From Lawsonibacter sp. (GTDB lineage Bacteria; Bacillota; Clostridia; Oscillospirales; Oscillospiraceae), in assembly GCA_022791075.1 (NCBI GenBank), contig JAAVYL010000086.1, positions 1-49,157 on the forward strand: a DNA stretch of 49,157 nt. The letters run 5' to 3'. Below the pieces are notes generated by a model. That model had not been told where the DNA came from and did not search any database. It saw only the letters and a program-made list of their open reading frames with translations. The position numbers and the translations under genes were made by a program. Positions 12,171-39,621 of this stretch are shown here, one piece after another (positions within the stretch are counted from its first letter, which is position 1; each line of letters begins with the position of its first letter).

Positions 12171-12199
12171 TTGGATTCTGATGTATTCTTATTTATACC
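12171..12199 (+). promoter_or_regulatory. Possible promoter of the M24/UroD operon
   Basis: TTGGAT (12171-12176), 17 bases, TATACC (12194-12199). Both boxes are weak, as expected for an activator-dependent promoter. Confidence 0.4.
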
Positions 12200-12260
12200 G
12201 CTAGTATATTAAAGTCAGCTGTCGGACCAGACATGGTCCTCCGGCAAGGGGGAGGTTCCT

Positions 12261-13469: not shown

Positions 13470-13485
13470 GGAGGGAGTGTTTACC

Positions 13486-15451: not shown

Positions 15452-15486
15452 AATGTCGCTCCAATCTGTAAATTTTGGCTGATTCT

Positions 15487-15515
15487 ATTTTAGACGATTA
15501 TGCTGTACAATACAA
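15487..15515 (-). promoter_or_regulatory. Promoter of the LysR gene
   Basis: On the minus strand TTGTAT (15515-15510), 17 bases, TAAAAT (15492-15487). The -35 box lies in an 11-bp element repeated in inverse orientation at the divergent promoter. Confidence 0.55.
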
Positions 15516-15552
15516 GGCGTACCTTGGGCGTTTTTGAATTAGTGTTAATATC

Positions 15553-15561
15553 CAACCGAAT
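15553..15561. promoter_or_regulatory. Candidate LysR half-site CAACCGAAT
   Basis: Identical to the left half of the palindrome at 12126-12139. It lies 36 bases before the -35 box of the dipeptide importer operon; the other copy lies 37 bases before its own -35 box. Confidence 0.45.
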
Positions 15562-15596
15562 TCTCATTTGACCGACTGATTTATCTGTCTTGCGCC

Positions 15597-15625
15597 TTGT
15601 ATTTCCTGTTCCCCTGTACTAGGAT
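15597..15625 (+). promoter_or_regulatory. Promoter of the dipeptide importer operon
   Basis: TTGTAT (15597-15602), 17 bases, TAGGAT (15620-15625). CGCCTTGTATT (15593-15603) is the exact reverse complement of 15509-15519, which holds the -35 box of the LysR promoter. Confidence 0.5.
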
Positions 15626-15725
15626 AACAGGGAGCAGCCGGCCAGGGCCGACAGGGGCCGGGTCGGACTGTGTGTAATTTTCGGGCGTCTCGTCCGTGAA
15701 TTAGAACTATTTAGGAGGTAGAAAA

Positions 15726-23864: not shown

Positions 23865-23909
23865 ATCCCCCAAAGCTATAGAGCTTTGGGGGATGCTTTT
23901 TAGTTTTCT
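23865..23909 (+). terminator. Rho-independent terminator ending the dipeptide importer operon
   Basis: Perfect 13-bp stem (23865-23877/23882-23894), 4-base loop, then GCTTTTTAGTTTTC. Faces the convergent dehydratase gene. Confidence 0.9.
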
Positions 23910-23937
23910 GGTGTAATCGCCAAGGCCCCGCACAGCA

Positions 23938-25641
23938 TCACGGGAGAGGGGCGGACGCTCCGGCACCGCACGGACCGCCGTACAGCCAGGTGCAGCCGGT
24001 GTTCACGCCGGTGACGGTATGGCGGTAGGCCGCCATAAAGCCGGAGGCGGGGTGGTTGTCCGGGCGTGTGACATGCTTCAGGCGCCGGGCAAGCTCCTCC
24101 TCACTGACCTCGAGGTGAATGGTGTGGCGGTCAATATCGATTTCAATCATATCCCCGTTTTGAACGGCGGCAATGGGGCCGCCGTCCCAGGCCTCGGGGG
24201 TCACATGGCCGATGCAGGGGCCGCGGGTTGCGCCGGAGTACCGGCCGTCCGTCACCATAGCCACGCTGGTATGCAGGCCCATTCCAACCAGCATGGCGGC
24301 GGGGATGGACATTTCCCGCATACCCGGCCCGCCCTTGGGGCCTTCGTAACGGATGATCAGCACACAGCCGGGCTGAATGTCCTTGTTTGCCATGGCGGCG
24401 CGCAGGTCGTCTTCAGAGTCGAAGCAGACGGCGGGGCCGCGGTGGTGGAACATCTCGGGCACTACGCCGCTCTTTTTCACCAGACAGCCGCCGGGGGCCA
24501 GATTGCCGTACAGCACGGCGTAGCAGCCGTCTGGGTAGAGGGGATCCTGGCAGGTGTGGATGATCTCGGGGTTTACAGGGCGGTGGAAGTGATCCAGAAA
24601 ATCTCCGACGGTCCCCCCCATCCCCAGCCGGCAGTCCAAATTCAGATGGGCCCGGATGGCTGACATGGTGGCGCCCACGCCGCCGGCCTTGTAGTAGTCA
24701 TAGATGCTGTACTGGCTGCTGGGCTTGAACTTTGCCACGCAGGGCACGCCGCGCTGGATTTCGTCAAACCTGCCCAGGTCCATCTCAATCCCCATCACAT
24801 GTGCAATGGCACAGACGTGCAGCTGGGCGTTGGTGGAGCCGCCGGTGGCGGCTGTATGCCGCAGGCCGTTGATGAGGCTCTCCTCGGTTACAATATCCGA
24901 AAAACGGACCTGTTCCTTGGTCAGGGTGACGATGCACTCCCCCACGTCCCGGGCCTGCTTGTACTTGGCGCTGGAGCAAAACAGCATGGTGGTGCTGTCA
25001 ATGGGACAGACGCCGATGACCTCGGCAAACACGCCCATGGTGTTTGCCGTCCCGTACATGGAGCAGGTGCCGCAGGAGTGACAGATATTTTCGCGGAAAC
25101 GGGTAAAGGTCTCCTCGTCAATCCGCTCCACGTTGCGGGCGCCGATGGCCTCTTTCAGGTCGGGGGTGACGTAGGTGCCCTCGGCGGACTCATAGGGAAT
25201 CATGCTGCCGGCGGTCAGAAAGAGGCTGGGCCTGTTCAGGGCGGCGGCGGCCATGAGCATACCGGGCACAATCTTGTCGCAGCTGCACAGAAATACCATG
25301 CCGTCGAAGCCGTGGGCGCGGGCCATGGCCTCGATGGAGGCGGCGATCAGGTCACGCTGGGGCAGAACCGTGTGCATACCGTCCCCCTGGGCCATGCCGT
25401 CACAGGGGGCGGGTACGTTAAACTCCGCGGGAACACCGCCGCCGGCCCAGATTCCCTCCTTGACAAACTCCACCAGCTGCTTGAACGGGCGATGGCCGGG
25501 ATTCACGTCGGTGTAGGAGCTGGCAATGCCGATGACAGGCTTTCTCAAGTCGCTGGTGCGATAGCCGCAGGCATTCATCAGGCCTGTATAATAGCCCTCC
25601 TGAGGCGCGTCAGGGCTGCGGCTGCCCATCCATTTTTCCAT
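23938..25641 (-). CDS. Dihydroxy-acid dehydratase family protein (IlvD/Edd)
   Basis: 567 residues. The iron-sulfur and active-site motifs are visible: [52 protein letters not shown], and [22 protein letters not shown] near the C-terminus. The family dehydrates dihydroxy acids of branched amino acid synthesis or sugar acids (gluconate, arabonate, xylonate). [16 protein letters not shown] is closer to the sugar-acid branch, but I cannot decide. The start at 25641 has AAGGAGAGG upstream. A longer frame to 25767 runs into the -35 box of the gene's own promoter and is rejected. It converges on the importer operon, has its own strong promoter and no ilvC/ilvB neighbours. Confidence 0.87.
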
Positions 25642-25738
25642 AATATCCTCTCCTTGTCCGCTGCCGGGCTGCAGTACCCTTCTGTTTGCGGCCTGTGATC
25701 TGACACCGATGCTTGCAGGCTGCGTCATCAGTTCAATC

Positions 25739-25767
25739 ATTATATCAAGCGCGGTTTTGAAATGCAA
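25739..25767 (-). promoter_or_regulatory. Promoter of the dehydratase gene
   Basis: Minus strand TTGCAT (25767-25762), 17 bases, TATAAT (25744-25739). Near consensus; gives a leader of about 90 bases. Confidence 0.75.
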
Positions 25768-25811
25768 TATGAAATGCCCAGGGCGGGGCGGGGCTGCCCT
25801 GTGAAAAACTA

Positions 25812-25840
25812 TTGAAAAACGGTTCGGAAATCTATATAAT
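25812..25840 (+). promoter_or_regulatory. Promoter of the five-gene MBL/HD-GYP/FecR/SLH/cyclase operon
   Basis: TTGAAA (25812-25817), 17 bases, TATAAT (25835-25840). A start near 25847 is 26 bases before the MBL start codon. Confidence 0.8.
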
Positions 25841-25872
25841 AAAAAGAAAGAACATTCGGACGGAGGCTGGTT

Positions 25873-26697
25873 ATGGAACAGAGACGGAGGTGGACGGTGG
25901 CTGTCTGGGGGACGCGGGGCGCGGTTCCCATGGCGGCGGCGGATTTTTTGGAGTACGGCGGCAACACGTCATGTATATCTGTAGACTGCGGCGGGGAGCT
26001 GGTGGTATTGGACGCGGGCAGCGGCATCATTGGCCTGGGCGAGCAGCTGTCCAGACAGAACACGCCAAAGAAGCTCCACCTGCTGATCAGCCATTTCCAT
26101 CTGGACCACATCACCGGTCTGACAGGGTTTCGGCCGCTGAACGACCCGACGGCTGAAATTCACCTCTATGGAGAGGGGAGGGGCAGCTTGAGCTTCCAGG
26201 GCCTGCTGGAGCAGATCCTCGGTCCGCCCTATTGGCCCGTTGGCCTGCGGGATTTCAGGTCCAGGGTGAGCTTTCATGAGATTGCCCCTGGAGAGCGGTT
26301 TTCCCTGTCGAACGGATTGACCGTGGACACAATGCGCGCAAACCACCCGAACCAGAGCCTGATTTACCGGCTGGAGGGGGAGGGAAGGCGGATTGTATAT
26401 ACCCTGGACTGTGAGATGGGGGACGGCATGGAGGCCCGGCTGGCGGAATTTGCCAGGAACTGCGGCCTGCTGATTTGGGACGCAAACTTTGCTCCGGCAG
26501 ACCTGATTCGGGGCTGGGGGCATTCCACCTGGGAGCAGGGCGCTGCGGTGGGCCGGGAGGCCGGCGCCGCCATGGTGCTGATGACCCATTTTTCCCACAG
26601 CTACACCGATGAATTTTTGCGGGAGCAGGAGCGCGTAGCCATGGCAGCGGACTGCGCCGTACGCTTTGCCAGGGAAGGAATGGAGATTGTGTTATGA
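25873..26697 (+). CDS. MBL-fold metallo-hydrolase (possible cyclic-phosphodiester hydrolase)
   Basis: 274 residues. The opening [26 protein letters not shown] matches the MBL branch that begins FWGVRGSIP...YGGNTSC. The metal motif HFHLDH is at residues 74-79; later ligands are likely the His in MRANHPNQS, Asp in YTLDCEMG and His in MTHFSHSY. Relatives (PhnP/RNase Z-like) cut phosphodiesters. With an adenylate cyclase and a c-di-GMP module in the same operon, hydrolysis of a cyclic nucleotide is a reasonable inference, not shown. First gene of the operon; it overlaps the next gene by four bases (ATGA). GGAGG precedes ATG. Confidence 0.85.
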
Positions 26698-28190
26698 ATG
26701 AGGCGGATGTTAAAAAGCTGCTGAAAATTGGTGTTCTGCTCTCCGCGGAGCGGGACCTGAACCGTTTGCTGGAGCGCATTCTGGAATGTGTGATGGACCT
26801 GGCCAGCTGCGACGCGGGAACACTGTACCTTCTGGACGGCGGCTCTCTGCGCTTTCGGATCATGCGCAACCGCACCCTGAAAACCTATTCCGGAGCGGAC
26901 GGAGTGGAACCGGACCTGCCGCCGGTGCCCCTGAGCCGGGAGAGCGTCTGTGCTCTGGCGGTGCTGGATGATAAGACCATCCGCATTGAGGACGTGAAGC
27001 ACTGCGCAGAATATGACCTGACAGGCCCCATCCGCTATGACGCCATGACGGGGTATAACACGGTGTCCATGCTGGTGGTGCCCATGCGCAACCGGGAGGG
27101 GGAGACCATCGGTGTCCTCCAGCTCATTAACGCCATGGACGAGGAGGGAAATATCTGCGCCTTCAGCGATGACATGACCCTGGTGCTGGAATCTGTGGCC
27201 TCACAGGCGGCCATCACCCTGCAGAACGTCCGGTATATTGCGGAAATCAAGGAGCTGTTCCAGTCCTTTGTCCGGGTGATGTCCTCCGCCGTTGACGAGA
27301 GAACACCCTATAACGGCAGCCACACCCGCCATATGGCGGCCTGCGGCGACCGGTTTATCGACTATCTCAACAGCCTTGAGAGCCCTCCCCCCTTTCCCCC
27401 CAGCAGGAAGGAGGAGCTGCTGATGAGTATCTGGCTCCACGATGTGGGCAAGCTGGTGACCCCCCTGGAGGTTATGAACAAGATGGCCCGGCTGCTGCCT
27501 GAACAGTACACAGCCTTTACCCACAGGATGGAGGTCATTCGCCTCCGGGCGGAAATTGACTGTCTGGCGGGCCGCCTCACCCGGGAGGAGAGCCAGGCCG
27601 TAGTCAGCCGGAGCCGGGAGGCGGCGGAGCTGGTGGACGCGGTCAATTCCGCCGGCTTTGTCACTGATGAGCGGCTGGAGGCCGTGGGAGAGCTCCGGCG
27701 GCGGACCTATACCGGCGAGAGGGGCGAGGTGCTGCCCTGGCTGACGGAAGAGGAGTATGCCATGCTGTCCATCCGCAAGGGGACCCTCTCGGACGGGGAG
27801 CGGCAGATTATGGAGGAGCACGTGACGGTGACTGACAAGCTGCTGTCGCAGATTCGCTTCTCCTCTGAGCTGTCCCATGTGCGGGAGTGGGCGGCGGCTC
27901 ACCATGAGCTGCTCAACGGCTCGGGCTATCCCAGGCACTGGAGGGGGGAGGAGATCCCCTATGAGGTGCGGATTATCACCATTTTGGACATCTTTGACGC
28001 GCTGGTTGCGGACGACCGGCCCTATAAGCCCGGGATGCCTGTGGAGAAGGCCCTTTCCATTCTGGAGATCATGGCGGAAAAGGAGGGGAAGCTGGACCAG
28101 GCATTGACGCGGCTGTTTATTGAGAGCAGATGCTGGGAGTCGGAGCTCCCCCGCGGAAAAGAGTATGAGATGAGGAGATGTGTGCAATGA
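26694..28190 (+). CDS. GAF/HD-GYP phosphohydrolase (probable c-di-GMP phosphodiesterase)
   Basis: 498 residues, soluble. A GAF domain spans about residues 8-180 (LLERILECVMDLASCDAGTLYLLDG; MLVVPMRNREGETIGVLQLIN). The HD-GYP domain follows: SHTRHM near 209, WLHDVGKL with His249-Asp250, then HHELLNGSGYP from His403 and ILDIFDALVADDRPYKP. The HHE and GYP features place it among c-di-GMP phosphodiesterases. Between the HD motif and the next helix (IMEEHV) lies a roughly 100-residue insertion (about 256-360) not found in short HD-GYP domains. Both ends overlap neighbours by four bases, so its amount is tied to the MBL and FecR proteins. Confidence 0.87.
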   Translation: MNEADVKKLLKIGVLLSAERDLNRLLERILECVMDLASCDAGTLYLLDGGSLRFRIMRNRTLKTYSGADGVEPDLPPVPLSRESVCALAVLDDKTIRIEDVKHCAEYDLTGPIRYDAMTGYNTVSMLVVPMRNREGETIGVLQLINAMDEEGNICAFSDDMTLVLESVASQAAITLQNVRYIAEIKELFQSFVRVMSSAVDERTPYNGSHTRHMAACGDRFIDYLNSLESPPPFPPSRKEELLMSIWLHDVGKLVTPLEVMNKMARLLPEQYTAFTHRMEVIRLRAEIDCLAGRLTREESQAVVSRSREAAELVDAVNSAGFVTDERLEAVGELRRRTYTGERGEVLPWLTEEEYAMLSIRKGTLSDGERQIMEEHVTVTDKLLSQIRFSSELSHVREWAAAHHELLNGSGYPRHWRGEEIPYEVRIITILDIFDALVADDRPYKPGMPVEKALSILEIMAEKEGKLDQALTRLFIESRCWESELPRGKEYEMRRCVQ

Positions 28191-31100
28191 AGAGAAGGAT
28201 ACTGTCTTTCCTGCTGGCGTTTTGTCTGCTGGCCGGTCTGCCGGTCCCCGCACTGGCTGCGGAGACCGCGGCGGTGATTCGGCTTACGAAGACCACGGGG
28301 ACGGTGAAGGTGAGCAAGAGCAGCGGGAAGTCCCTGACCCTGATGAGCAATATGCGGCTGTACAACGGCTACCACGTCACCACGTCGTCCAAGAGCTACG
28401 CATGGCTGAATCTGGACGACACAAAGCTCCTCAAGGAGGACGCGGCCAGCGAGGTGGAGGTGCGCAAGAGCGGCAAGAAGCTGGAGGTCAACGTCTGTTC
28501 AGGCAGCGTGTTTTTCGATGTGTCGGAAAAGCTGAAGGACGACGAGAGCCTGAACATCAGCACCTCGACGATGATCGTGGGCATCCGCGGCACCGCAGGC
28601 TATGTACAGGTGGTGGACCGTTGGACCACGCGGGTCTGCATTCTGGAGGGGGAGGCCCAGTGCTCTGTGGCGGACCCGGTGACGGGCCAGGTGAAGACCG
28701 AGTCCATCCGCAGCGGCGAGACGGCGCAGTGCGTGGTCTATCCCCAGGACCGGGCGGGGGACAAGTGCGACATTTTGATGGGTCAATGCACCGTGGAGGA
28801 GATCCCGGGCTTTGTGGTGGTGGACCTGGTGCGGGATATTCCGCTGTGCGACAGGATTGAAGAGGCCTCCGGGCTGGACATCACCCGTGAGCTGGCAGCC
28901 GTGGCGGGCGGCGACCCCAGCGGGCGGATGCCCGGAGGAGAGAGCGCCACCCCCGAGGTGCTGGGGGAGTCGGACCGGCGGGAGGACCGGGACGAGGCCG
29001 AGCTGCAAGAAAAGCAGAAAGAGGTGGAGACGGAGGAGAAGAAGCAGGCGGGGAGCGTCTCCCCGGATAAGGCCCTGCCCAAGGACCCGGGCCGGCCCTC
29101 CGGCGGCGGAGGCGGAGGCGGAGGCGGGGGAGGCACAGTCCCCCCGCAGAAGGAGCAGACCATGAAGCTGACAGACGTTCAGGTTCAGGAGCTGCTGGGG
29201 CAGGCGAACGCCGTCTCTGTTGCGCCCAATCCAAACGCAGCCACCTCTAACGAAAACACCCTGGAGGTGAATACCGGGCTGAACGTTGCGGCGGGGAAGA
29301 CGCTGACCCTGCAAAGCGGCGTGGATGTGGAGGTTGCGGCGGGAAAGAGCCTCCAGGTGCACGGGACCCTGACGGCGGATAACCTCCGAAATGACGGCGC
29401 TGTCACCGTCACCAGCAGCAACACCCTGCGGCTGCGGGGAAATCTGACCAGCTCCGGCACGCTGGCTGTGACCAGCCAGGGCCGGGTGGTGGTGGACGGT
29501 ACCTTTACCCGGACCGGGGGGCTGAACCTCACCCGGGGGGCCGCGGTGCTGGCCAAGAGCTTTGCCCCCGGCGCGGCCCCGGACGGCTGGGTGGTGTCCA
29601 ATACACCGGACAGCTCCGGGTATTACTCGCTGGTCCCTGTCAACTCCGTCCCTGTGCGGTTTGACGCCAACGGCGGCACCTTCAGCAGCGGCGCGGCGGA
29701 GACCATCCTCCAGACGCAGGGGGACGGAACCATCCCCAACTGGCCGGACAAACCCGTTCAGACAGGCTATGTCTTCACGGGCTGGTTCGACGCCCCAACC
29801 GGCGGCGCCCAGATCGCCCAGGACCACGTCTTTACCGCTGAAACCGCGCTTTACGCCCAGTGGGCGGCCGATACCATTACCTGGAGCTACGACCAGCCCA
29901 CCAAAACCCTCACCATCTCCGGCGCGGGGCCGATGCCGGATTACAGCTCCTCCAATCGCCCACCCTGGGCCGCGCATGAGGGCGAGATGGAGCAGGTCGT
30001 GATTAATTCCGGCGTGACCAGCATTGGAGATTTGGCTTTCTATAACTGCACCAACCTGACCAGCATTACCATCCCTGAGGGCGTGGAAAGCATTGGAAGT
30101 AGTGCTTTCTGGAACTGCACCAGTCTGACCAACATCACCATTCCCAACAGTGTGACCAGCGTTGGGGGGGCTGCCTTCTGGAACTGCACCAGTCTGACCA
30201 GTGTTGACATCCCTGATGGCGTGACCAGTATTGGAGGCAGTACCTTCGATGGCTGCACCAACCTGACCAGCGTCACCATTCCTGACAGCGTGACCAGCAT
30301 TGAATATTCTGCCTTTTTCGGCTGCTCCAGCCTGACCGGCATCACCATCCCTGATGGCGTGACCAGCATTGGAAATAGTGCCTTCAGCGGCTGCGCGGCC
30401 CTGACCAACATCAATATTCCCAATAGCGTGACCAGCATTGAGGATTCTGCCTTTTTCTATTGCTCCAGCCTGATCAGCATCACCATCCCTGATGGCGTGA
30501 CCAGCATTGGAGGTAATACCTTCGATGGCTGCAGTAGTCTGACCAACGTCACCCTCCCCGGCACCCTTACCAGCATTGGAGAGAATGCTTTCTTCAGCTG
30601 CGATGCCCTGACCAGCATCACCATCCCTGATGGCGTGACCAGCATTGGAAATTCTGCTTTCGGATACTGCCACAAACTGACCAGGGTCACCCTCCCCGGC
30701 ACCCTTACCAGCATTGGTAATTCCGCCTTTATCGTGTGCGACAAGCTGACAGACATCTACTTCGGCGGCACGCGGGCGCAGTGGGAGAACAATGTTACAA
30801 AAGGGGCATCCGCGATTCCCAACGGCGTGACCGTCCACTTCACCGACGAATTTTTATGGAGCTACAACCCGGTCGCAAAAATCCTCACCATCTCCGGCCC
30901 GGGGCCGATGCCGGATTACAGTTCCTCCAACCGCCCGCCCTGGGCCGCGCATGAGGGCGAGATGACGCAGGTCGAGATCGGTTCCGACGTGACCAGCATT
31001 GGAGATTTGGCTTTCTATAACTGCACCAACCTGACCAGCATTACCATCCCTGAGGGCGTGGAAAGCATTGGAAGTAGTGCTTTCTGGAACTGCACCAGTC

Positions 31101-33703
31101 TGACCAGTGTTGACATCCCTGATGGCGTGACCAGTATTGGAGGCAGTACCTTCGATGGCTGCACCAACCTGACCAGCGTCACTATCCCTGATAGCGTGAC
31201 CAGCATCGGAGAGTATGCTTTCAACAGCTGCGGCAGCCTGACCAGCATCACCATCCCTGATGGCGTGACCAGCATTGAAGCGTATACCTTCGGTGGCTGC
31301 AACAACCTGACCAGTGTCACCATTCCCGACAGCGTGACCAGCATTGGAGAGTATGCCTTCAACAGCTGCGCCAGCCTGACCAGCATCACGATCCCTGATG
31401 GCGTGACCAGCATTGAGACGTATACCTTCAATGGCTGCATCAGCCTGACCAGCGTCAACATTCCCGAGGGCGTGACCAGCATTGGAGATTCTGCCTTCGG
31501 ATACTGCACCAGCCTGACCAACATCATTATCCCTGAGGGCGTGACCAGCATTGAAAATTTTGCCTTCGAGGGCTGCAGGAGCCTGACCAGTGTCACCCTC
31601 CCCGGCACCCTTACCAGCATTGGTAATTCCGCCTTTATCGTGTGCGACAAGCTGACAGACATCTACTTCGGCGGCACGCGGGCGCAGTGGGAGAACAACG
31701 TTACAAAAGGGGCATCCGCGATTCCCAACGGCGTGACCGTCCACTGCACCGACGAATTTTTATGGAGTTACAACGATGTCGCAAAAATCCTCACCATCTC
31801 CGGCCCGGGGCCGATGGATGATACGAACCCCTGGTCTGCATCTGCTTCCGGAGCGGAGAAGGTGATTATTAAGGATGGTGTGACCAGTATCAGCAAAGAC
31901 GCGTTCGTTAACTACAATAAGCTTACCAGCGTGACAATTCCTAAGAGCGTAACCAGTATTGGAGAAGCCGCGTTTGGCAACACTGGCCTGACCGACTTTA
32001 CCATCCCTGACAGCGTGACCAGCATCGGCATGGATGCGTTCAGGCAGTCTAAACTGGTTACCGTCACGATTCCCGGCAGTGTGACCAGTATTGGTATAAA
32101 CGCGTTCGCTGAAGGTGATTTGACGGATATTTACTATCAGGATACCAGAGAGAAATGGAACGCCCTTGGCTACGTCACCAGCGCTGCCGTCCACTGCACC
32201 GACGACTTTGCGTGGAGCTACGACAATACCACAAAAACCCTCACCATCTCCGGCCCGGGGGCAATGCCGAACTATGAAACCCCTGAAAATCGGGAGTGGA
32301 TTGGCCGTGTGCCCGAGGTTGAGAAAGTTGTCATCGAAGATGGCGTTACCCGTGTGGGGATCTCTGCCTTTGAGGGGTGCATAAACCTGAACACAGTCAC
32401 CATCCCTGGCAGTGTAACTGGTATCGGCAGCAAGGCCTTTGGAAACTGCACCGCTCTGACAGACGTCTATTTTGGCAGCACCAAGGCGCAATGGCAGGCG
32501 CTTGTGGAAAACAGCAACTTCACAATGCCCCCCGTGACCATCCACTGCACCGACGGTGACCTGCAAACCTACAAGATCACCCTGGAGGCGAACGGCGGGA
32601 AATTCCCCGATAATGGGGATCAGTACATAATCGGAACGGAGCTGGACGGAACAACGTCGGTCGATTTTGAGAACGACATGCCAGCCCCGCCGGATGAGCA
32701 GCATGTGTCCGTTGGCTGGTTTACTGCCCCCACCGGCGGTGAGAGAATTCTCAATGGCCACGTCTTTACAGCAGATACCACCCTCTACGCCCAGTGGGCG
32801 ACCGACACCATTACCTGGAGCTACAACCAGGACACAAAAACCCTCACCATCTCCGGCGCGGGACCAATGCCGGATTACAGCACCTCCGACCGCACGCCCT
32901 GGGCCGCGCATGAGAGCGAGATGACGCAGGTCATAATCAATTCCGGTGTGACCAGCATTGGACGCGATGCCTTCCTGGATTGCAGCAGCCTGACCGGCAT
33001 CACCATCCCTGAGGGCGTGACCAGCATTGGAGGGTATGCTTTCAGCAGATGCAGTAATCTGACCGGTGTCATCCTCCCCGGCACCCTTACCAGCATTGGT
33101 GAATACGCCTTTAACGGGTGCAGCATGCTGACAGACATCCACTTCGGCGGCAAGAGGGCGGAGTGGGAGGCCCTCAGCGTTACGCTTCCTACGGACGAGA
33201 GCGGAGCCACGTTTACTGCAGTCCACTGTACGGATGACCCGGGCTGGGTCTATGACGACGCGACGAAAACCCTGACAATAATAGATCTCAACGGCGGCTG
33301 GAGTGCCAGCAAGGATACCGTGGAGCATGTCATTGTGGTGGAGGGACCAACCTACATCAATGACACACTGTTTCAGTCCTGCACCGCTCTGAAAACCGTC
33401 AAGCTGCCCAGCAGTCTGACTCAGATCAACACGGATGCTTTTGCCGGCTGTGTGAACCTGGTGAGCGTCACAATGCCCAATGTGAGGATCATATATGAGC
33501 GCGCATTTCAGAACTGCAGCAGTCTGGAGAGCCTGACCCTCCCCGGCAGCTTGAGCATACTCAGCGGGGATGTGTTTAATGGGTGCACCAGCTTGAACAG
33601 TATCACATTTGGCGGAACAAAGGCGGAATGGGGAAAATTTGCGGACAAAGTCCCCAGTGGAGTGGTTGTCATCTGCACAGACGGTAGCGTAACCACCCCC
33701 TAA
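28187..33703 (+). CDS. Giant secreted FecR-domain / BspA-type leucine-rich repeat protein
   Basis: 1838 residues. Signal peptide (RRILSFLLAFCLLAGLPV, cut after about residue 24), FecR domain about 30-195 (GKSLTLMSNMRLYNGYHVTT; STSTMIVGIRGTAGYV), an acidic then Gly-rich linker (run of ten Gly near 306), a beta-rich segment to about 485, then two InlB-type B-repeats (about 488-560 and 1462-1540, each ending ALYAQW or TLYAQW) and BspA LRR_5 repeats of 23 residues such as LTSITIPDGVTSIGNSAF. The LRRs form six cassettes, each opened by WSY..TKTLTISG-like residues; most close with FGGTxAxW and a VHCTD-like end. No LPXTG or SLH anchor is visible. The start overlaps the HD-GYP stop; the frame from 28178 is rejected. 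FecR normally receives a signal, so it may sense surface state. Confidence 0.88.
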   Translation: MKRRILSFLLAFCLLAGLPVPALAAETAAVIRLTKTTGTVKVSKSSGKSLTLMSNMRLYNGYHVTTSSKSYAWLNLDDTKLLKEDAASEVEVRKSGKKLEVNVCSGSVFFDVSEKLKDDESLNISTSTMIVGIRGTAGYVQVVDRWTTRVCILEGEAQCSVADPVTGQVKTESIRSGETAQCVVYPQDRAGDKCDILMGQCTVEEIPGFVVVDLVRDIPLCDRIEEASGLDITRELAAVAGGDPSGRMPGGESATPEVLGESDRREDRDEAELQEKQKEVETEEKKQAGSVSPDKALPKDPGRPSGGGGGGGGGGGTVPPQKEQTMKLTDVQVQELLGQANAVSVAPNPNAATSNENTLEVNTGLNVAAGKTLTLQSGVDVEVAAGKSLQVHGTLTADNLRNDGAVTVTSSNTLRLRGNLTSSGTLAVTSQGRVVVDGTFTRTGGLNLTRGAAVLAKSFAPGAAPDGWVVSNTPDSSGYYSLVPVNSVPVRFDANGGTFSSGAAETILQTQGDGTIPNWPDKPVQTGYVFTGWFDAPTGGAQIAQDHVFTAETALYAQWAADTITWSYDQPTKTLTISGAGPMPDYSSSNRPPWAAHEGEMEQVVINSGVTSIGDLAFYNCTNLTSITIPEGVESIGSSAFWNCTSLTNITIPNSVTSVGGAAFWNCTSLTSVDIPDGVTSIGGSTFDGCTNLTSVTIPDSVTSIEYSAFFGCSSLTGITIPDGVTSIGNSAFSGCAALTNINIPNSVTSIEDSAFFYCSSLISITIPDGVTSIGGNTFDGCSSLTNVTLPGTLTSIGENAFFSCDALTSITIPDGVTSIGNSAFGYCHKLTRVTLPGTLTSIGNSAFIVCDKLTDIYFGGTRAQWENNVTKGASAIPNGVTVHFTDEFLWSYNPVAKILTISGPGPMPDYSSSNRPPWAAHEGEMTQVEIGSDVTSIGDLAFYNCTNLTSITIPEGVESIGSSAFWNCTSLTSVDIPDGVTSIGGSTFDGCTNLTSVTIPDSVTSIGEYAFNSCGSLTSITIPDGVTSIEAYTFGGCNNLTSVTIPDSVTSIGEYAFNSCASLTSITIPDGVTSIETYTFNGCISLTSVNIPEGVTSIGDSAFGYCTSLTNIIIPEGVTSIENFAFEGCRSLTSVTLPGTLTSIGNSAFIVCDKLTDIYFGGTRAQWENNVTKGASAIPNGVTVHCTDEFLWSYNDVAKILTISGPGPMDDTNPWSASASGAEKVIIKDGVTSISKDAFVNYNKLTSVTIPKSVTSIGEAAFGNTGLTDFTIPDSVTSIGMDAFRQSKLVTVTIPGSVTSIGINAFAEGDLTDIYYQDTREKWNALGYVTSAAVHCTDDFAWSYDNTTKTLTISGPGAMPNYETPENREWIGRVPEVEKVVIEDGVTRVGISAFEGCINLNTVTIPGSVTGIGSKAFGNCTALTDVYFGSTKAQWQALVENSNFTMPPVTIHCTDGDLQTYKITLEANGGKFPDNGDQYIIGTELDGTTSVDFENDMPAPPDEQHVSVGWFTAPTGGERILNGHVFTADTTLYAQWATDTITWSYNQDTKTLTISGAGPMPDYSTSDRTPWAAHESEMTQVIINSGVTSIGRDAFLDCSSLTGITIPEGVTSIGGYAFSRCSNLTGVILPGTLTSIGEYAFNGCSMLTDIHFGGKRAEWEALSVTLPTDESGATFTAVHCTDDPGWVYDDATKTLTIIDLNGGWSASKDTVEHVIVVEGPTYINDTLFQSCTALKTVKLPSSLTQINTDAFAGCVNLVSVTMPNVRIIYERAFQNCSSLESLTLPGSLSILSGDVFNGCTSLNSITFGGTKAEWGKFADKVPSGVVVICTDGSVTTP
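29866..33690 (+). repeat. Tandem 69-bp LRR-coding repeats with recent segmental duplication
   Basis: The gene is built of 69-bp units (23 codons). Bases 30014-30131 are identical to 30989-31106 (118 bp). The match then resumes between 30201-30276 and 31107-31182, so the second copy lacks exactly one 69-bp unit. The cassette end near 30693-30839 is repeated almost base for base at 31598-31745. Confidence 0.9.
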
Positions 33704-33725
33704 GCCGAGAGAAGGAGTGACCACG

Positions 33726-35204
33726 ATGTCCAAAAAATTAAGATGGGCCGCCCTGCCGGCGGCACTCGCCCTTGCGCTGACCCTTCCTCTCCCTGTTCGC
33801 GCCGCCGGAACAGGGTACAGCGACGTGCCCCAGGGGGCGTGGTATGCGGAGGCGGCGGCGTACTGCCGGGAGCACGGTCTGCTCTACGGCACCGGAGAGG
33901 ACCGGTTCTCCCCCGAACTGCCGGTGTCCCGGGGGATGCTGGCCGCGGTGCTGCACCGGCTGGCGGGCTCTCCGGCGGCGGCGGGGGAGCTCCCCTTCAC
34001 CGACGTGGCCCCCGGCGCATGGTACGCAGACGCGGTGCGCTGGGCCGGCCAGCGCGGCTATATGAGCGGCTATGGAGAAGGCCTGTTCGGGCCTGAGGAC
34101 CCTGTCACCCGGGAGCAGCTGGCGGCGGTCCTCTGGCGCTACGCCGGCAGTCCCGCCGCCCAGGCGGAGGACTTTGCCGACGAGGGGGAGATTGCCCCTT
34201 ACGCCCTGCCGGCCGTGGACTGGACCCGGTCCGCCGGGCTGATCAGCGGCGTGGGGGACAACCGCTTTGCCCCCGGGGCGGGCGCGGCCCGGAGCCAGCT
34301 GGCCGTCATTCTGATGAATTTTTCCGGCCTGAGCAGGGTCACCTCGGTGAGCGCCATAGACGTGATGTGCCAGCCCTGCGGCGTTGCCGCCATGCCGGAC
34401 GGCTCGCTGCTGGTGACAGATCAGTATAACAAGGTGATCTGGCGGGTGACAGAGGGCAGGAGCAGTCCCTTTGCCGGAGCCGACACCGTGGAGGACGTCT
34501 ACGGCCAGCCTGTGGGCGGCTACCACGACGCCGCCCTGCTCAAGAGCCTCTTTAAGGACCCGTGGGCCATTGCTCCCTTTCTGGGGGGCTGGGCGGTGTC
34601 AGATGCGGAGAACGGTGTGGTGCGCTTCCTCCGCCCGGATGACAGCGGAACGGTAAACCGCACCGGAGTGACCGACCTTGGGGTCAGCTTCGACCATCCC
34701 ACCGGCCTGGCGGCCGATGATGCGGGCAGTCTCTATGTGTCAGATACCTTTTTGGGGGTTGTGAAAAAGATTACCCCCGCCGGCCAGGTATCCACCTGGG
34801 CCTCCGGTCTGACGGAGCCTATGGGCCTGTGCTGGGCAGACGGCTCCCTCTACATTGCCGAGTGCGGCGGCAACCGCATTTTGAAGGTGGGCGGAGACAA
34901 AAAGGTAACGGTTGCCGCGGGCAGCGGCACTGAGGGCGAAGCCGACGGCCCCGCTGCCCAGGCCTCCTTCTCCGGTCCCAAGGGGGTCGCTGTGGCCGCG
35001 GACGGCACGATTTACGTAGCGGATACGGACAACGGTACGGTGAGGCGGGTGCGGGACGGCCAGGTGACCACCATTCTCTCCCGGGATCCCCGTGACGTGA
35101 CAGCCCTCTTCCCTGCGGCCCCCACCGGCCTGCTGATTCAGGGCAATACGCTGTATATCTCAGACACCTTTGCCCGGAAGCTGCTGGCCCTCCCCCTGGA
35201 CTGA
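33726..35204 (+). CDS. SLH-domain protein with NHL-type beta-propeller repeats
   Basis: 492 residues. A signal peptide (KLRWAALPAALALALTLPLPVRAA) is followed by three S-layer homology domains to about residue 200 (YSDVPQGAWYAEAAAYCREHGL; FTDVAPGAWYADAVRWAGQRGY; third weaker, PYALPAVDWTRSAGLISG). These would hold it on cell-wall polymer. The rest has NHL/SMP-30-like propeller blades (GVAAMPDGSLLVTDQYNKVIW, GLAADDAGSLYVSDT, GVAVAADGTIYVADTDNGTV). It lies 22 bp after the FecR/LRR gene with AGAAGGAG before ATG. The pair may form a surface complex: this one anchored, the other not. Function unknown; binding of glycan or protein is inferred from fold. Confidence 0.88.
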   Translation: MSKKLRWAALPAALALALTLPLPVRAAGTGYSDVPQGAWYAEAAAYCREHGLLYGTGEDRFSPELPVSRGMLAAVLHRLAGSPAAAGELPFTDVAPGAWYADAVRWAGQRGYMSGYGEGLFGPEDPVTREQLAAVLWRYAGSPAAQAEDFADEGEIAPYALPAVDWTRSAGLISGVGDNRFAPGAGAARSQLAVILMNFSGLSRVTSVSAIDVMCQPCGVAAMPDGSLLVTDQYNKVIWRVTEGRSSPFAGADTVEDVYGQPVGGYHDAALLKSLFKDPWAIAPFLGGWAVSDAENGVVRFLRPDDSGTVNRTGVTDLGVSFDHPTGLAADDAGSLYVSDTFLGVVKKITPAGQVSTWASGLTEPMGLCWADGSLYIAECGGNRILKVGGDKKVTVAAGSGTEGEADGPAAQASFSGPKGVAVAADGTIYVADTDNGTVRRVRDGQVTTILSRDPRDVTALFPAAPTGLLIQGNTLYISDTFARKLLALPLD

Positions 35205-35217
35205 GAGGGGGAGCTGT

Positions 35218-37020
35218 ATGAAAAAAAGTCTGCGCACTCCCCTGGCAGCCCTGGCCGCGGCGGCTGTGATGACCCTGCTGGCGGCCTCCGGCCTGCTGAA
35301 CAAGGCGGACTGGGCCGCCTCAGACGCCTGGTACCAGAGCCGCAGCGCCCCGGAGGAGGATATTGTCCTGGTGGGCATCGACCAGCGGGCCGTGGATGAG
35401 ATCGGCCCCTATCAGGAGTGGGGCCGGGACATTATCACCATGGCCATTGAGGCCCTGAATGAGTCTGAGGACTGCCGCCCGGCGGCTATCGCTGTGGACG
35501 TCCTCTATGCGGGTGAGACGGACCCGGAGACGGACCAGTGGCTGGCAGAGGCTGCCGGCAGCTATGACAATGTGGTGACGGCCTGCGCCGCCCAGATTGC
35601 GGACACCTTCCAGGAGAGCGGCGAGGGCCTCTTCCGCCGGGAACGGTTCACCATCCTGGGCCTGGAGGAGCCCTACGCCGCCCTCCGTCAGGCCACCACC
35701 CAGGGGCATATCAACGCCATGCTGGACACGGACGGCATCCTTCGCCACCATTTGCTCTACCTGGACCTGCCCGACGGGCGGCGCCTCCCTTCCATGGCGC
35801 TGGCGGCGGCGGAGAAGTACTGGGAATTTCACGGTCTGGAGCCTGTGGCCCCGCCCCCCACTGACGGCCACGGCTTCTGGTATCTGCCCTTTGCCGGAGA
35901 GCCGGGAGATTTTGATGCGGGAATCTCTGTGGCCGACCTGGTGGCGGGGGAGGTCCCGGCGGATTACTTTGCCGGAAAGGTGGTCTTCATTGGCCCCTAT
36001 ACCGTGGGCCTTCAGGACAACTATGTCACTTCGGCGGACCACGCACGGCCCATGTACGGCGTGGAGTATCAGGCCAACGCAGTCCAGGCGCTCCTTCTGG
36101 GCGAACACAAGGGGGAGGTGGGGGACGCCCCCCAGCTAGCGGTGCTTTTTGCGGTGCTGCTGGTCTCCTTCATTCTGTTCTGGCAGCGGGGCGTTGCGCT
36201 GTCCACTGCGCTTTGGGCTGCGGTCTGCGGCGGCTGGCTGGCGCTGAGCCGCCTGCTGTACGGCCAGGGCCTAGTGCTGCACGTGATATGGATCCCTCTG
36301 GGGGTTACGATTCTCTATGTGGCGTGTATCGCCTTGAATTACATCCGTTCGGCCCTGGAGAAGCGGCGGGTCACCGCCACCTTTAAACGCTATGTGGCCC
36401 CGGAGATTGTCAACGAGATTCTGAAGGAGGGCTCCGACGCCCTGGAGCTGGGCGGAAAACTGACAAACATTGCGGTGCTGTTTGTGGACGTCCGCGGCTT
36501 TACCACCATGTCCGAGCGGCTCCAGCCCAAGCAGGTGGTAGAGATTTTAAACCGCTATCTGACCCTGATTGCCGACTGTATCCTGAAAAACGGCGGCACC
36601 CTGGATAAGTTTGTAGGGGATGCGGCCATGGCCTTCTGGGGGGCGCCGCTGCCCCAGGAGGACTATGTGATGCAGGCGGTGAAGGCAGCGGCGGACATGG
36701 TCAGCGGCTCCAGAGCCCTGTCTGAGGAGCTGATGGAACGGTTTGGCCAGACGGTATCCTTCGGCATCGGCATTCATATGGGGGACGCCGTGGTGGGCAA
36801 TATCGGTTCCCCGCAGCGGATGGACTACACCGCCATCGGCGACACGGTGAATACCTCCGCCCGGCTGGAGGCCAACGCCCCCGGCGGGACCATCTACATC
36901 TCCCGTGCGGTGGCTGAGCAGCTGGAGGGCCGTATCCGCGTGACCTCTCTGGGAGACAGCGTGAAGCTGAAGGGAAAGGCCGAGGGCTTCGAGGTGCTGA
37001 TTATGGAGGAAATTTTGTGA
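35218..37020 (+). CDS. CHASE2-domain membrane adenylate cyclase (class III)
   Basis: 600 residues: one N-terminal helix (about 8-27), an extracytoplasmic CHASE2 domain (about 40-310; EDIVLVGIDQRAVDEIG, ending YGVEYQANAVQALL), three helices (about 315-385), a short linker (FKRYVAPEIVNEIL) and a class III cyclase domain. Catalytic residues are complete: metal Asp424 (LFVDVRGF) and Asp468 (FVGDAAMAF), adenine-selecting Lys464 with Thr in DYTAIGDTVN, and transition-state Asn/Arg in VNTSARLE. The Lys/Thr pair points to ATP, so cAMP. ATG 35218 is chosen because GAGAGGGGGAG precedes it; the frame from 35170 overlaps the SLH gene. It is the last gene of the operon and probably reads an outside signal through CHASE2. 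Confidence 0.9.
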   Translation: MKKSLRTPLAALAAAAVMTLLAASGLLNKADWAASDAWYQSRSAPEEDIVLVGIDQRAVDEIGPYQEWGRDIITMAIEALNESEDCRPAAIAVDVLYAGETDPETDQWLAEAAGSYDNVVTACAAQIADTFQESGEGLFRRERFTILGLEEPYAALRQATTQGHINAMLDTDGILRHHLLYLDLPDGRRLPSMALAAAEKYWEFHGLEPVAPPPTDGHGFWYLPFAGEPGDFDAGISVADLVAGEVPADYFAGKVVFIGPYTVGLQDNYVTSADHARPMYGVEYQANAVQALLLGEHKGEVGDAPQLAVLFAVLLVSFILFWQRGVALSTALWAAVCGGWLALSRLLYGQGLVLHVIWIPLGVTILYVACIALNYIRSALEKRRVTATFKRYVAPEIVNEILKEGSDALELGGKLTNIAVLFVDVRGFTTMSERLQPKQVVEILNRYLTLIADCILKNGGTLDKFVGDAAMAFWGAPLPQEDYVMQAVKAAADMVSGSRALSEELMERFGQTVSFGIGIHMGDAVVGNIGSPQRMDYTAIGDTVNTSARLEANAPGGTIYISRAVAEQLEGRIRVTSLGDSVKLKGKAEGFEVLIMEEIL

Positions 37021-37025
37021 GAATT

Positions 37026-37058
37026 CCGCCCGCCGTGCTTTCCGGCGGGCGGTTTTTT
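37026..37058 (+). terminator. Rho-independent terminator of the cyclase operon
   Basis: Perfect 10-bp GC stem (37026-37035/37043-37052), 7-base loop, then six T. Confidence 0.93.
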
Positions 37059-37143
37059 GCTGCCTGCGGCCAGGTTGGCTCCCCCACGGCCGGCCGGTTT
37101 TTGCCGCCCTCTGGAGAATTCCTCCAAATTTAGAAAAAGAGTA

Positions 37144-37172
37144 TTGTCAAGGGAAATAAAGGAGTGTATAAT
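37144..37172 (+). promoter_or_regulatory. Promoter of the TetR gene
   Basis: TTGTCA (37144-37149), 17 bases, TATAAT (37167-37172). TGTAT-A-ATACA (about 37166-37176) over the -10 box could be a small operator for the TetR protein itself. Confidence 0.7.
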
Positions 37173-37214
37173 ACATCTCCGAAGCGACAGTGAGCGGAAC
37201 CGGTCTGGAGGGAA

Positions 37215-37835
37215 GTGATTGTTCTGGATGACACCAAAATGCGGATTGTTCTTGCAACTATGAAGGCGGTGCGTCAGTATGGCCTGGAGGGGGTGCGCAT
37301 CCAGAACGTCAGTGAGCTGGCGGGAATTTCTCCGGGGGCGCTGTACCGCTACTTCGAGAGCAAGGACCAAATGATTGTGGAGTGCTTCACCTATGTGGAT
37401 AAGCAGGCGGCGGCAATTTTTGATCACCTGAAATTCAACCCCCTCACCATGCTCAGCAACCCTATGGGAGCGGTGAAAAGCCTGTGGCTGCCCTATTTCC
37501 GCTTTTGGACCTCTCACCCGGACGAGACCATCTTTTATCACCGCTTTCGAGACAGCGCCTTTTTTCCAAAATATGATAAGACTCGGGATTTAACCTATTT
37601 TAATACATTTATCCAAATGGTCCGCCTTTTTAAAAGAGCCTTTCCGGCGCTGGACAAAATCAATCAGGACCTGCTGTGGCTCCATGTCCTCACCTCCACG
37701 GTGATGTATGCCAAATATGTGGTAGAGGGCATCCTGCCCAACAACCAGGAGACAGAGGATACCGTGTTTCAGCTGCTGACCATAGGCCTGAGCGGCTATC
37801 TGAAGCCTAAGAAGCCCCCGGAGAAGCGGGGCTGA
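37215..37835 (+). CDS. TetR/AcrR family transcriptional regulator
   Basis: 206 residues. The N-terminal helix-turn-helix reads VRIQNVSELAGISPGALYRYFESKDQMIVE; the rest is a helical ligand-binding domain with no recognisable family. The start is uncertain: GTG 37215 lies only four bases after GGAGG, and the next in-frame ATG (37239) has no ribosome binding site. A hairpin (37837-37859) sits right after the stop, before the diguanylate cyclase gene, so it may be monocistronic. Its target could be the diguanylate cyclase/PilZ pair or its own promoter. Confidence 0.85.
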   Translation: MIVLDDTKMRIVLATMKAVRQYGLEGVRIQNVSELAGISPGALYRYFESKDQMIVECFTYVDKQAAAIFDHLKFNPLTMLSNPMGAVKSLWLPYFRFWTSHPDETIFYHRFRDSAFFPKYDKTRDLTYFNTFIQMVRLFKRAFPALDKINQDLLWLHVLTSTVMYAKYVVEGILPNNQETEDTVFQLLTIGLSGYLKPKKPPEKRG

Positions 37836-37836
37836 G

Positions 37837-37859
37837 AGACACCCCGCCGGGGGGTGTCT
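37837..37859 (+). terminator. Hairpin after the TetR gene
   Basis: AGACACCCC (37837-37845) pairs with GGGGTGTCT (37851-37859) around five bases. The following TTGACC is poor in T, so termination may be partial. Confidence 0.5.
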
Positions 37860-37946
37860 TTGACCTGTGTAAGTAAATATTTATTTTTAATGCCGGAAGC
37901 ATCCGTTGTTTCCCTGGCTAAACAACCCGATGAGGAGTGTTTCGTG

Positions 37947-38864
37947 ATGGAAAAAATACTGATTGTTGACGACAGCCTTGTGCAGGCCTCCCAGCTGAAG
38001 TCCATCCTGGAGGACGAGTACGAGGTCTCTATTGCGCAGACGGCAGAGGACGGGCTGTCCCGTGTGGGCAGTGAAAACTTTTCCCTGATCCTGCTGGATG
38101 TGGTGATGCCGGGAATGGACGGCTTTACGCTGCTGAAGAAGCTGCAGGAGGAAATCATTACCCAAAGCATTCCGGTTATCCTGATTACCAGCCTCTCTGA
38201 TGCGGCCAGTGAGCAGCGCGGACTTGTGCTGGGAGCGGTTGACTATATTACAAAGCCCTTCAAGTCTCTGATTGTAAAGGCCAGGGTCAACACACACATT
38301 AAGCTGTATAATTACCGCCGGCTGGCGGAGCGGCAGTCCATGACCGATCAGCTGACCGGCATTGCCAACAGGCGCAGGTATGAGCGGTACAGCGCGGTAA
38401 AGTGGCATGAGGCCACCCGGCTGCAGATCCCCTTTTCCATATGTATGTTTGATATTGACCACTTTAAGGTATATAACGACAAGTTTGGCCATCCCGCCGG
38501 CGACAAGGTGATTGCGGCCGTCGCAAAAACCGTGTCCTCCCACCTGAACCGCAATACGGATTTTTTTGCCCGCTACGGCGGAGAGGAATTTGTGTCCATT
38601 ATCCTGGGCTCAGAGTCGGAAAAGGTGTTTGCACATCTGAAAAGAATCCGGCAGGCGGTGGAGGACCTCCATATTGCCCATGATCCCTCCATATCTGAGT
38701 GGGTCACGGTCAGCGTGGGAGGGATTACGGTGATTCCTCCGGTGGACGGCTCCTATGCATATTACTTGAAGGTGGCGGACACAATGCTGTACGATGCCAA
38801 AAAGCATGGCCGGAACAAGGTTGTCTGGGCCGATGAGCAGATGAGACAGCTGTGGGAGAAATAA
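37947..38864 (+). CDS. Response regulator with diguanylate cyclase (receiver-GGDEF, PleD/WspR-like)
   Basis: 305 residues. Receiver domain 1-120: MEKILIVDDSLVQASQL, acceptor Asp51 in LILLDVVMPGMDG, switch Thr in VILITSLSD and Lys in YITKPFKS. The GGDEF domain follows a short coiled linker: DQLTGIANRRRYERY, CMFDIDHFKVYNDKFGH and the active-site GGEEF at 211-215. The inhibitory site RNTD (202-205) sits five residues before it, so product feedback should work. It makes c-di-GMP when phosphorylated. No histidine kinase adjoins; the hybrid kinase at 9.1 kb is one distant candidate. ATG 37947 has AGGAG nine bases upstream; the longer frame from 37854 is rejected. The PilZ gene follows 55 bp later. 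Confidence 0.92.
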   Translation: MEKILIVDDSLVQASQLKSILEDEYEVSIAQTAEDGLSRVGSENFSLILLDVVMPGMDGFTLLKKLQEEIITQSIPVILITSLSDAASEQRGLVLGAVDYITKPFKSLIVKARVNTHIKLYNYRRLAERQSMTDQLTGIANRRRYERYSAVKWHEATRLQIPFSICMFDIDHFKVYNDKFGHPAGDKVIAAVAKTVSSHLNRNTDFFARYGGEEFVSIILGSESEKVFAHLKRIRQAVEDLHIAHDPSISEWVTVSVGGITVIPPVDGSYAYYLKVADTMLYDAKKHGRNKVVWADEQMRQLWEK

Positions 38865-38919
38865 CGGCCTCTCCTGCAGCCGCAGGAGGGCGGAACGTAT
38901 CTGATACAGGAGGTATTTT

Positions 38920-39621
38920 GTGAAGCTGTTTGACTTGTTTGGAAGACGGACAAAGGAGCAGCCGGCCCAGGAGAGCGAAAAAGCGGATGGGACAGAGGAT
39001 ATGGAGCTCTACTCCGGTATGCGGGTGGAGGTGACAACGTTTGAGGGGCGTCTGCTGTTTGTGGCAAAGCTGCTGGGCCTGCACGGAAAAAAGGCGGAGC
39101 TGCATCAGTATTCCGAGGCCGGACTTTCCCGGGAGGAGGAGAGTGAGCCTCTTCCGGTCAAGATCCGCGGGTACAGCGACCATGAGCGAAAGGCTGTATA
39201 TATGGAGGGCGTCATTACGCCCCTGCCTGACAGCAAATGGGCAGTGGAGGAGCTGACGGTCTGCAAAATCAGCAACGACCGCGCCTTTTTCCGGCTCAGC
39301 ACAAATCTGGAAGCCACAGCTACCATGTTCAGCGGCCTGGAGATGGGGGAGAAGCCCTGCCGGCTGCTGAATATCAGCGTGGGCGGAGCCAGCATCAGCT
39401 CCACTTACAGATACCATATGGGAGACAAGTTTTTGCTGAAGGTCAAGCTGCTGGAGGACAGGCCGATTTCTGCGATCTTCAGCCAGGTTGTGCGTATTAT
39501 CGAGAAGGAGGACGCTGAATACGAATATGGCTGCCAGTTCCTGGAGCTGACCGAGGAGGACGAGGGAAAGATCACACAGAATATCTTTGCTGTCCAGCGC
39601 CAGAAGCGGGCCCGGTACTGA
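38920..39621 (+). CDS. PilZ-domain c-di-GMP effector protein
   Basis: 233 residues, GTG start with CAGGAGG seven bases upstream. The N-terminal part (about 30-110) resembles the YcgR-N-like beta barrel (MRVEVTTFEGRLLFVAKLL). The C-terminal PilZ domain has both c-di-GMP motifs: RxxxR as RAFFR (121-125) and the NxSxxG form NISVGG from Asn151. No membrane segment. Encoded directly after a diguanylate cyclase, it is the likely receptor for that signal; YcgR-type proteins usually act on the flagellar motor or on polysaccharide synthesis, but no such genes are here. Confidence 0.87.
   Translation: MKLFDLFGRRTKEQPAQESEKADGTEDMELYSGMRVEVTTFEGRLLFVAKLLGLHGKKAELHQYSEAGLSREEESEPLPVKIRGYSDHERKAVYMEGVITPLPDSKWAVEELTVCKISNDRAFFRLSTNLEATATMFSGLEMGEKPCRLLNISVGGASISSTYRYHMGDKFLLKVKLLEDRPISAIFSQVVRIIEKEDAEYEYGCQFLELTEEDEGKITQNIFAVQRQKRARY

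Follow-up and report, generated by a model that had tools for sequence, protein, structure and literature searches.

The question raised by this locus is whether five tightly packed genes, lying together on a 49,157-nucleotide contig of Lawsonibacter sp. (JAAVYL010000086.1, positions 1-49,157, the window), serve a single purpose. They encode a metallo-β-lactamase (MBL) fold hydrolase, a GAF/HD-GYP protein, a secreted FecR-domain protein with leucine-rich repeats (FecR/LRR), a protein combining S-layer homology repeats with an NHL propeller (SLH/NHL), and a class III adenylate cyclase with a CHASE2 ectodomain (CHASE2-AC). Since relatives tend to hold or lack most of these parts together, the five-gene set is probably one sensing device. 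We tentatively read the whole block, at slightly under even confidence, as an accessory signalling operon in which surface proteins, CHASE2 cyclase, and MBL and HD-GYP enzymes would form one sensing system.

To follow these genes among close relatives, 64 genomes of the same genus were compared. CHASE2 scored above the cut-off in five of them, and the full-length GAF/HD-GYP protein was found in exactly the same five, always above 600 bits, the next best HD-GYP match reaching 60; such a 5-of-5 coincidence has a chance of 1.3e-7 if the two are independent, a figure that the kinship of the genomes makes larger. FecR was detected in four genomes, all among the five with CHASE2, and a class III cyclase in six, with one match each: the five CHASE2 genomes and a further one, G009. 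MBL exceeded 260 bits in four of the five and gave 142 bits in G009; in the fifth (G069), the contig stops 381 nt short of the HD-GYP gene. Within the genus the cassette is nearly all-or-none. It should be noted that one more genome (G035) had CHASE2 below the cut-off and that its locus was left out of the locus sample.

A wider sample of 78 CHASE2 loci was tabulated from searches at genus, order, class and phylum level. The phylum sample comprised 48 genomes with CHASE2, 3 of which were already in the set; 40 of the other 45 were taken and five lower-scoring ones (G1045, G1028, G1070, G893 and G994) were left out. One locus without a CHASE2 match above 60 bits (L049) was dropped from the table and three cut or fragmentary ones (L041, L048, L115) were retained. 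Many loci run to the end of their contig, the profiles for locus and neighbourhood searches were built from these same loci, and the midpoint-rooted tree serves for orientation only. A cyclase domain is present at 74 of the 78 loci. Within 10 kb of CHASE2 we found FecR at 55 loci, a full HD-GYP at 20 (the fusion at L039 included), MBL at 15, NHL at 14 and SLH at 12, and when only loci with both flanks longer than 4 kb are counted FecR occurs at 42 of 52. FecR genes are concentrated close to CHASE2, with 57 within 4 kb versus 2 at 5-9 kb (1.03 versus 0.05 per 10 kb, about twentyfold), and 54 of these 57 lie on the cyclase strand; in this density count the MBL and HD-GYP genes of the source locus fall in the far class owing to the length of the FecR/LRR gene. 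All parts of the set are found at the source locus and at L042, L044 and L107, and nearly all at L120, where the NHL protein carries PF07833 instead of SLH and the HD-GYP protein is split over two open reading frames (ORFs). The block proposed in the original prediction recurs in full in a few relatives, and the surface and cyclase genes, whose consistent separation would have spoken against it, are linked at many of the loci.

Fusions of the parts with one another in relatives argue further that they are tied together. SLH, FecR and LRR are joined in a single 1,226-residue protein encoded beside CHASE2-AC on the opposite strand (L130), and an SLH-FecR-Big_2 protein is encoded beside CHASE2-AC on the same strand at L126. 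At L039 (1844-3889), CHASE2 is fused to HD-GYP and has no cyclase domain. Directly 3' of CHASE2-AC at L108 lies an MBL-GAF-GGDEF fusion (11378-13093), and similar-sized genes at that place in L109-L112 match the GAF profile, two of them with weak MBL matches, as judged from profile scores. In G009, genes for MBL, a GAF protein, a response-regulator (REC) cyclase and an HD protein stand in a row (L185:14089-17434), and neither CHASE2 nor FecR scores above threshold in that genome.

At the source locus, the five genes are predicted from their layout to form one transcription unit (Table 1).

Table 1. Features of the predicted operon, in window positions.
Feature	Position	Strand	Basis
Promoter-like TTGAAA-17-TATAAT	25812..25840	+	Consensus scan, 11/12 positions
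MBL-fold phosphodiesterase-like hydrolase, 274 aa	25873..26697	+	PF12706, 68 bits
GAF + HD-GYP phosphodiesterase-like protein, 498 aa	26694..28190	+	Pfam GAF_2, HD_5
Secreted FecR-domain protein with BspA-type LRRs	28178..33703	+	FecR 34 bits; LRR_5 803 bits; two Flg_new stretches
SLH (N-terminal, three repeats) + NHL propeller protein	33717..35204	+	SLH 103 bits, 3 stretches; NHL 68 bits
CHASE2 ectodomain + class III adenylate cyclase, 600 aa	35218..37020	+	CHASE2 137 bits; Guanylate_cyc 84 bits; ATG start
Intrinsic terminator-like stem + T-run	37026..37058	+	10-pair all-GC stem 37026-37052, then TTTTTT

All named domains of the five proteins score above the Pfam cut-offs. The promoter-like site ends 32 nt upstream of the MBL start codon, the MBL and GAF/HD-GYP genes overlap by 4 nt, and the 5' end of the FecR/LRR gene, which starts at ATG 28178 (1,841 residues) or ATG 28187 (1,838 residues), overlaps the 3' end of the GAF/HD-GYP gene. 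The SLH/NHL gene starts at GTG 33717 or ATG 33726, leaving a gap of 13 or 22 nt from the FecR/LRR gene, and is separated by 13 nt from the cyclase gene. In a consensus scan of positions 23900-38900, the only other promoter-like site matching at 11/12 positions was at 37144, 3' of the operon. Inside the operon, two sites were found on its own strand, both at 9/12 (30282 and 32910) and none above; the whole scanned region held 11 promoter-like sites versus 4.7 (standard deviation 2.1) in shuffles. The five genes of the original prediction, their order, the promoter-like site and the terminator-like stem were all found in place, with neighbouring genes overlapping or at most 22 nt apart. Of the two surface proteins that it had called giant, FecR/LRR alone deserves the word (about 1,840 residues), the SLH/NHL protein having 492-495.

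The three enzymes of the operon keep the residues expected for activity. Class III cyclases are recognised by two metal-binding aspartates, a Lys/Asp pair that selects the base and gives preference for ATP, and an Asn/Arg pair. This signature is present in the CHASE2 cyclase, which is therefore predicted to be active and, with the Lys/Asp pair kept, should prefer ATP: D424, D468, K464 and N545 are invariant in an alignment of 24 of the 74 CHASE2-cyclases tabulated, and D536 and R549 occur in at least 90% of these sequences. A hydrophobicity scan revealed four hydrophobic segments; the N-terminal one and the three that come later enclose an outside domain of some 280 residues. The matches listed in structure searches with the whole cyclase model are cyclases, aligned mainly over residues 382-600. 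The source genome contains one class III cyclase match.

The HD-GYP hallmark consists of an HD pair, later histidines and an HHE..(N/D)G.GYP motif. All three elements are retained in the GAF/HD-GYP protein, whose motif reads HHELLNGSGYP in the source genome, and H249, D250, K253, H376, H403, H404, E405 and D432 are invariant in 17 aligned sequences of 21 (L039, a fusion, L120, which is split, L104 and L132 were left out). Similarly, H74, H76, D78, H79, H158, D179 and H239 of the MBL protein are invariant in 14 of 17 sequences, those left out being L047 (cut), L050 (start unclear) and L141 (weak). Both proteins are thus predicted hydrolases. The MBL model, with a pLDDT (predicted local distance difference test) of 91, has as its best PDB match B. 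subtilis YhfI (6kns), followed by RNase Z, PhnP and Apyc1. YhfI served as template for Rv1339, a mycobacterial cyclic AMP (cAMP) phosphodiesterase of the atypical class-II kind that contains PF12706 (PMC9293780), and the MBL protein has the PF12706 fold and the full metal-ligand set of this type. It is most likely a cAMP phosphodiesterase that would reset the signal. A Leptospira plasmid HD-GYP protein (the first-listed plasmid match, 30%) was considered as a cassette relative and rejected, no CHASE2, FecR or MBL being annotated around it.

These features are compatible with the following mechanism. The FecR/LRR protein and the putatively wall-anchored NHL/SLH propeller, both predicted to be exported, would form or present a sensing surface, the state of which would be read by the CHASE2 ectodomain, possibly through direct FecR-CHASE2 contact. 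CHASE2 would then switch the cyclase between low and high output of cAMP, the primary output, and the MBL enzyme would remove cAMP as an off-switch. By lowering cyclic di-GMP (c-di-GMP), the GAF/HD-GYP protein would let the same stimulus touch the sessile/motile messenger as well, and its GAF domain may read cAMP. This GAF resembles, among PDB structures, the GAF domains of a cyclic-nucleotide-related adenylate cyclase and of PDE5 and also that of an HD-GYP protein for which we know of no cyclic-nucleotide binding; owing to this last resemblance, gating by cAMP is put forward as a proposal. The source genome gives three cNMP-binding matches and four GGDEF matches (one weak, and one at 38340 of the window), so that possible receivers and c-di-GMP makers are present. 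The sensing system of the original prediction is partly upheld in that most parts co-occur, cluster and fuse in relatives and keep their active-site residues, whereas its NHL/SLH component is held more loosely.

A more ambitious version would have a wall-anchored sensor couple the two messengers: variable FecR modules (LRR, Big, beta-helix), sometimes with several FecR proteins per cyclase, would act on one CHASE2 and through it on the single class III cyclase detected in the genome, a c-di-GMP enzyme (HD-GYP or GGDEF according to lineage) would sense cAMP with its GAF domain, and MBL would clear cAMP, the whole being a portable relay also built around a response-regulator cyclase (G009) or short-cut by CHASE2-HD-GYP (L039). 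We regard this version as doubtful. FecR copies can exceed cyclase copies, with three matches in G069 and G025 and two in G030 for one cyclase each, and a further FecR ORF adjoins one of the matches in G025. Extra FecR proteins are also encoded elsewhere in genomes with a single CHASE2 cyclase (L201:6805-7935, L202:7073-8389, L203:4285-6795); four extra FecR ORFs in L201, L202 and L203, two of which were run through Pfam, start with a lipoprotein-like LTSC.

As to the surface proteins, the FecR domain of the FecR/LRR protein is encoded at 28376-28657, the gene contains a 69-nt repeat unit (23 residues), and the hydrophobicity scan gave one N-terminal segment and no other. LRRs were found in one of 14 other FecR-domain proteins run through Pfam (at L130), and at L046 an LRR gene adjoins the FecR gene; from these comparisons, the LRR part appears as a lineage-specific extension of the FecR protein. 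The N-terminal end of the SLH/NHL protein looks like a signal peptide by eye, with no segment above the threshold of the scan. CsaB pyruvyl transferase was looked for since it is expected for SLH anchoring: its gene is present in the source genome (290 bits versus a cut-off of 213), and 4 of 14 control genomes likewise have a match above the cut-off. A wall-anchor enzyme is thus possibly available, and a wall location of the SLH/NHL protein is what we infer. Surface contact, the stimulus named in the original prediction, is a guess. We consider it somewhat unlikely that what is sensed is instead the condition of the cell wall or envelope, with SLH and FecR/LRR as wall-state probes for CHASE2, an explanation disfavoured by the presence of LRR, Big and List_Bact modules in FecR proteins, these modules being usual in adhesins and suggestive of outside ligands. 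In its favour, CsaB is present and wall-anchor-like parts recur in varied form: SLH is found on FecR proteins (L126, L130), and in the NHL protein it lies at the N-terminal end (source locus, L051) or C-terminal end (L042, L107) or is replaced by PF07833 (L099, L120). Moreover, in a Burkholderia biofilm operon a CHASE2 kinase goes together with a LysM-FecR protein (PMC5192318).

Several observations weigh against the reading as a single device. FecR is missing within 10 kb at 23 of the 78 loci, some through contig ends, and in the genus the 97% complete genome G062 has cyclase, MBL and HD-GYP and no FecR above threshold, from which it follows that FecR is not obligatory. NHL plus SLH occur at 8 of the 78 loci, and the NHL/SLH gene, counted at loci only, at two of the five in the genus (the source locus and L051). 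The phylum search supplied 40 of the loci (L116-L155); 22 of them contain FecR and CHASE2-AC without MBL, full HD-GYP, NHL or SLH, so that the full set is a minority form. In G025, CHASE2-AC and MBL-HD-GYP-FecR are on different contigs with other genes around both. The FecR matches in two of the fusions are partial, that in L130 with 29.4 bits over 37 of 97 positions and that in L126 with 22.2 bits, below the cut-off of 24. Finally, the MBL protein scores 44 bits against NF041851, the NCBIfam model of cyclic nucleotide-degrading phosphodiesterases (cut-off 400), which we take to cover Rv1339, and a higher 77 bits against the RNase Z model TIGR02651 (cut-off 293).

Part of this evidence would be accounted for if FecR and CHASE2-AC were the only functional core, with MBL, GAF/HD-GYP and NHL/SLH as looser co-transcribed neighbours and no exchange between the cAMP and c-di-GMP arms. 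Besides the phylum-search loci reduced to these two genes and the scarcity of NHL/SLH in the genus, the position of MBL and HD-GYP varies: they precede FecR at the source locus and at L009 (MBL-HD-GYP-FecR-FecR-cyclase) and follow the cyclase in L006, L007 (FecR-cyclase-MBL-GAF, the GAF cut by the contig end) and L050. By contrast, the exact match in the genus between genomes with full-length GAF/HD-GYP and those with CHASE2, and the MBL-GAF-GGDEF and CHASE2-HD-GYP fusions, argue against mere neighbours, and in G009 the MBL, GAF and HD genes flank a response-regulator cyclase that is not of the CHASE2 type, which suggests that it is to the cyclase as such that they are linked. A core limited to FecR and CHASE2-AC is unlikely in our judgement.

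The scores of the MBL protein likewise leave some room for a phosphodiesterase of the RNase Z or PhnP type with different substrates, for instance the linear products of HD-GYP, as do the RNase Z and PhnP structures among its fold matches. Since both sequence models are far below their cut-offs the substrate is assigned by inference; we judge other substrates rather improbable, cAMP remaining the preferred assignment. A chance neighbourhood of unrelated genes, for which the split arrangement in G025 alone speaks, is rejected as scarcely credible given the co-occurrence of CHASE2, GAF/HD-GYP, FecR and cyclase in the 64 genomes and the clustering of FecR around CHASE2 at the 78 loci.

Gene clusters of related make-up have been described in part from other bacteria, and the block, probably one signalling operon, would be a variant of them. 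In Campylobacterota, clusters of genes for a CHASE2 cyclase, FecR, a phosphodiesterase and a tetratricopeptide repeat (TPR) protein have been reported, for which the authors inferred horizontal transfer (PMC9239204, available part). The resemblance lies in CHASE2 on a class III cyclase and in an exported FecR-domain protein, both present here, and in a phosphodiesterase said there to hydrolyse cAMP, to which the phosphodiesterase-like fold and ligands of the modelled MBL protein may correspond; as far as that part of the paper describes it, however, the Campylobacterota FecR protein is assigned to the outer membrane and a TPR gene is the fourth member, whereas here FecR/LRR is secreted and accompanied by NHL/SLH and GAF/HD-GYP (PMC9239204). 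No TPR family was among the Pfam matches of the five proteins. Linkage of FecR, CHASE2 and cyclase, attributed in the original prediction to Proteobacteria, is thus not confined to them, being published for Campylobacterota and common in the source phylum. On a Ruegeria plasmid, FecR is annotated beside a cyclase matching the source CHASE2 protein.

Other known systems share fewer parts. In the Burkholderia BiofilmReg operon, a wall-binding (LysM) FecR protein also adjoins a CHASE2 receptor, and a strain with an interrupted response-regulator gene formed no biofilm; unlike here, the CHASE2 domain belongs to a histidine kinase that is paired with a response regulator, and the available text names no cyclase, HD-GYP or MBL (PMC5192318). 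The S. meliloti cyclases CyaD1, CyaD2 and CyaK resemble the present one in that cAMP output of a CHASE2 cyclase depends on a surface partner and an outside protein, and the Clr targets studied include a FecR-domain protein; the partner there is the outer-membrane barrel NsrA, through which CHASE2 cyclases respond to the plant protein uL2, according to the portions of the reports at hand (PMC13001267, PMC5498481; uL2 response, PMC13001267). At the Magnetospirillum mtxA locus an exported-protein gene is likewise followed by a CHASE2 adenylate cyclase-like gene, but in the available extract no FecR domain is named for MtxA and no MBL, HD-GYP or SLH partner is named (PMC4439547). FecIRA iron-citrate signalling also places a FecR domain outside the membrane; here, however, FecR looks secreted and the block lacks an anti-sigma part, a sigma factor and a TonB receptor. 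Classical FecIRA signalling was therefore rejected, no sigma factor or anti-sigma family being above the Pfam cut-off in the five proteins and the FecR/LRR protein having its single N-terminal hydrophobic segment.

No paper in the open-licence library searched describes a version with NHL/SLH wall anchoring, an LRR-bearing FecR protein and associated c-di-GMP enzymes, and none there joined CHASE2 with S-layer and HD-GYP, HD-GYP with adenylate cyclase and S-layer homology, CHASE2 with NHL, or FecR domain with S-layer homology. cAMP signalling has been little studied in Gram-positive-type bacteria, in which the operon would provide a built-in relay from cAMP to c-di-GMP if its GAF reads cAMP. 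What CHASE2 senses and why FecR keeps it company are largely open, and in this compact cassette FecR, CHASE2 and the messenger enzymes could be removed singly. The factors recognised by CHASE2 were called not known in the part of a 2016 paper available to us (PMC5192318).

Regarding the surroundings of the operon, a TetR gene with its own 11/12 promoter-like site lies downstream, followed by genes for REC-GGDEF (37854-38864) and a PilZ protein (38920-39621). A c-di-GMP maker and a receiver thus stand beside the HD-GYP operon, a pair not found adjoining it in the related stretches examined. The flanking genes (TetR, REC-GGDEF, PilZ, ilvD and the gene at 22519) were rejected as members of the cassette, being unmatched at E 1e-8 in the stretches of 13 related loci, several of which are short, with the exception of a partial response regulator match (32% identity) in L050. 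Elsewhere, in L008, ORFs at 8424-11946 made of repeated ISIHAPREGGD / FNPRPPRGGR resemble a translated CRISPR array, and the ORFs at 12342-16864 may be Cas genes.

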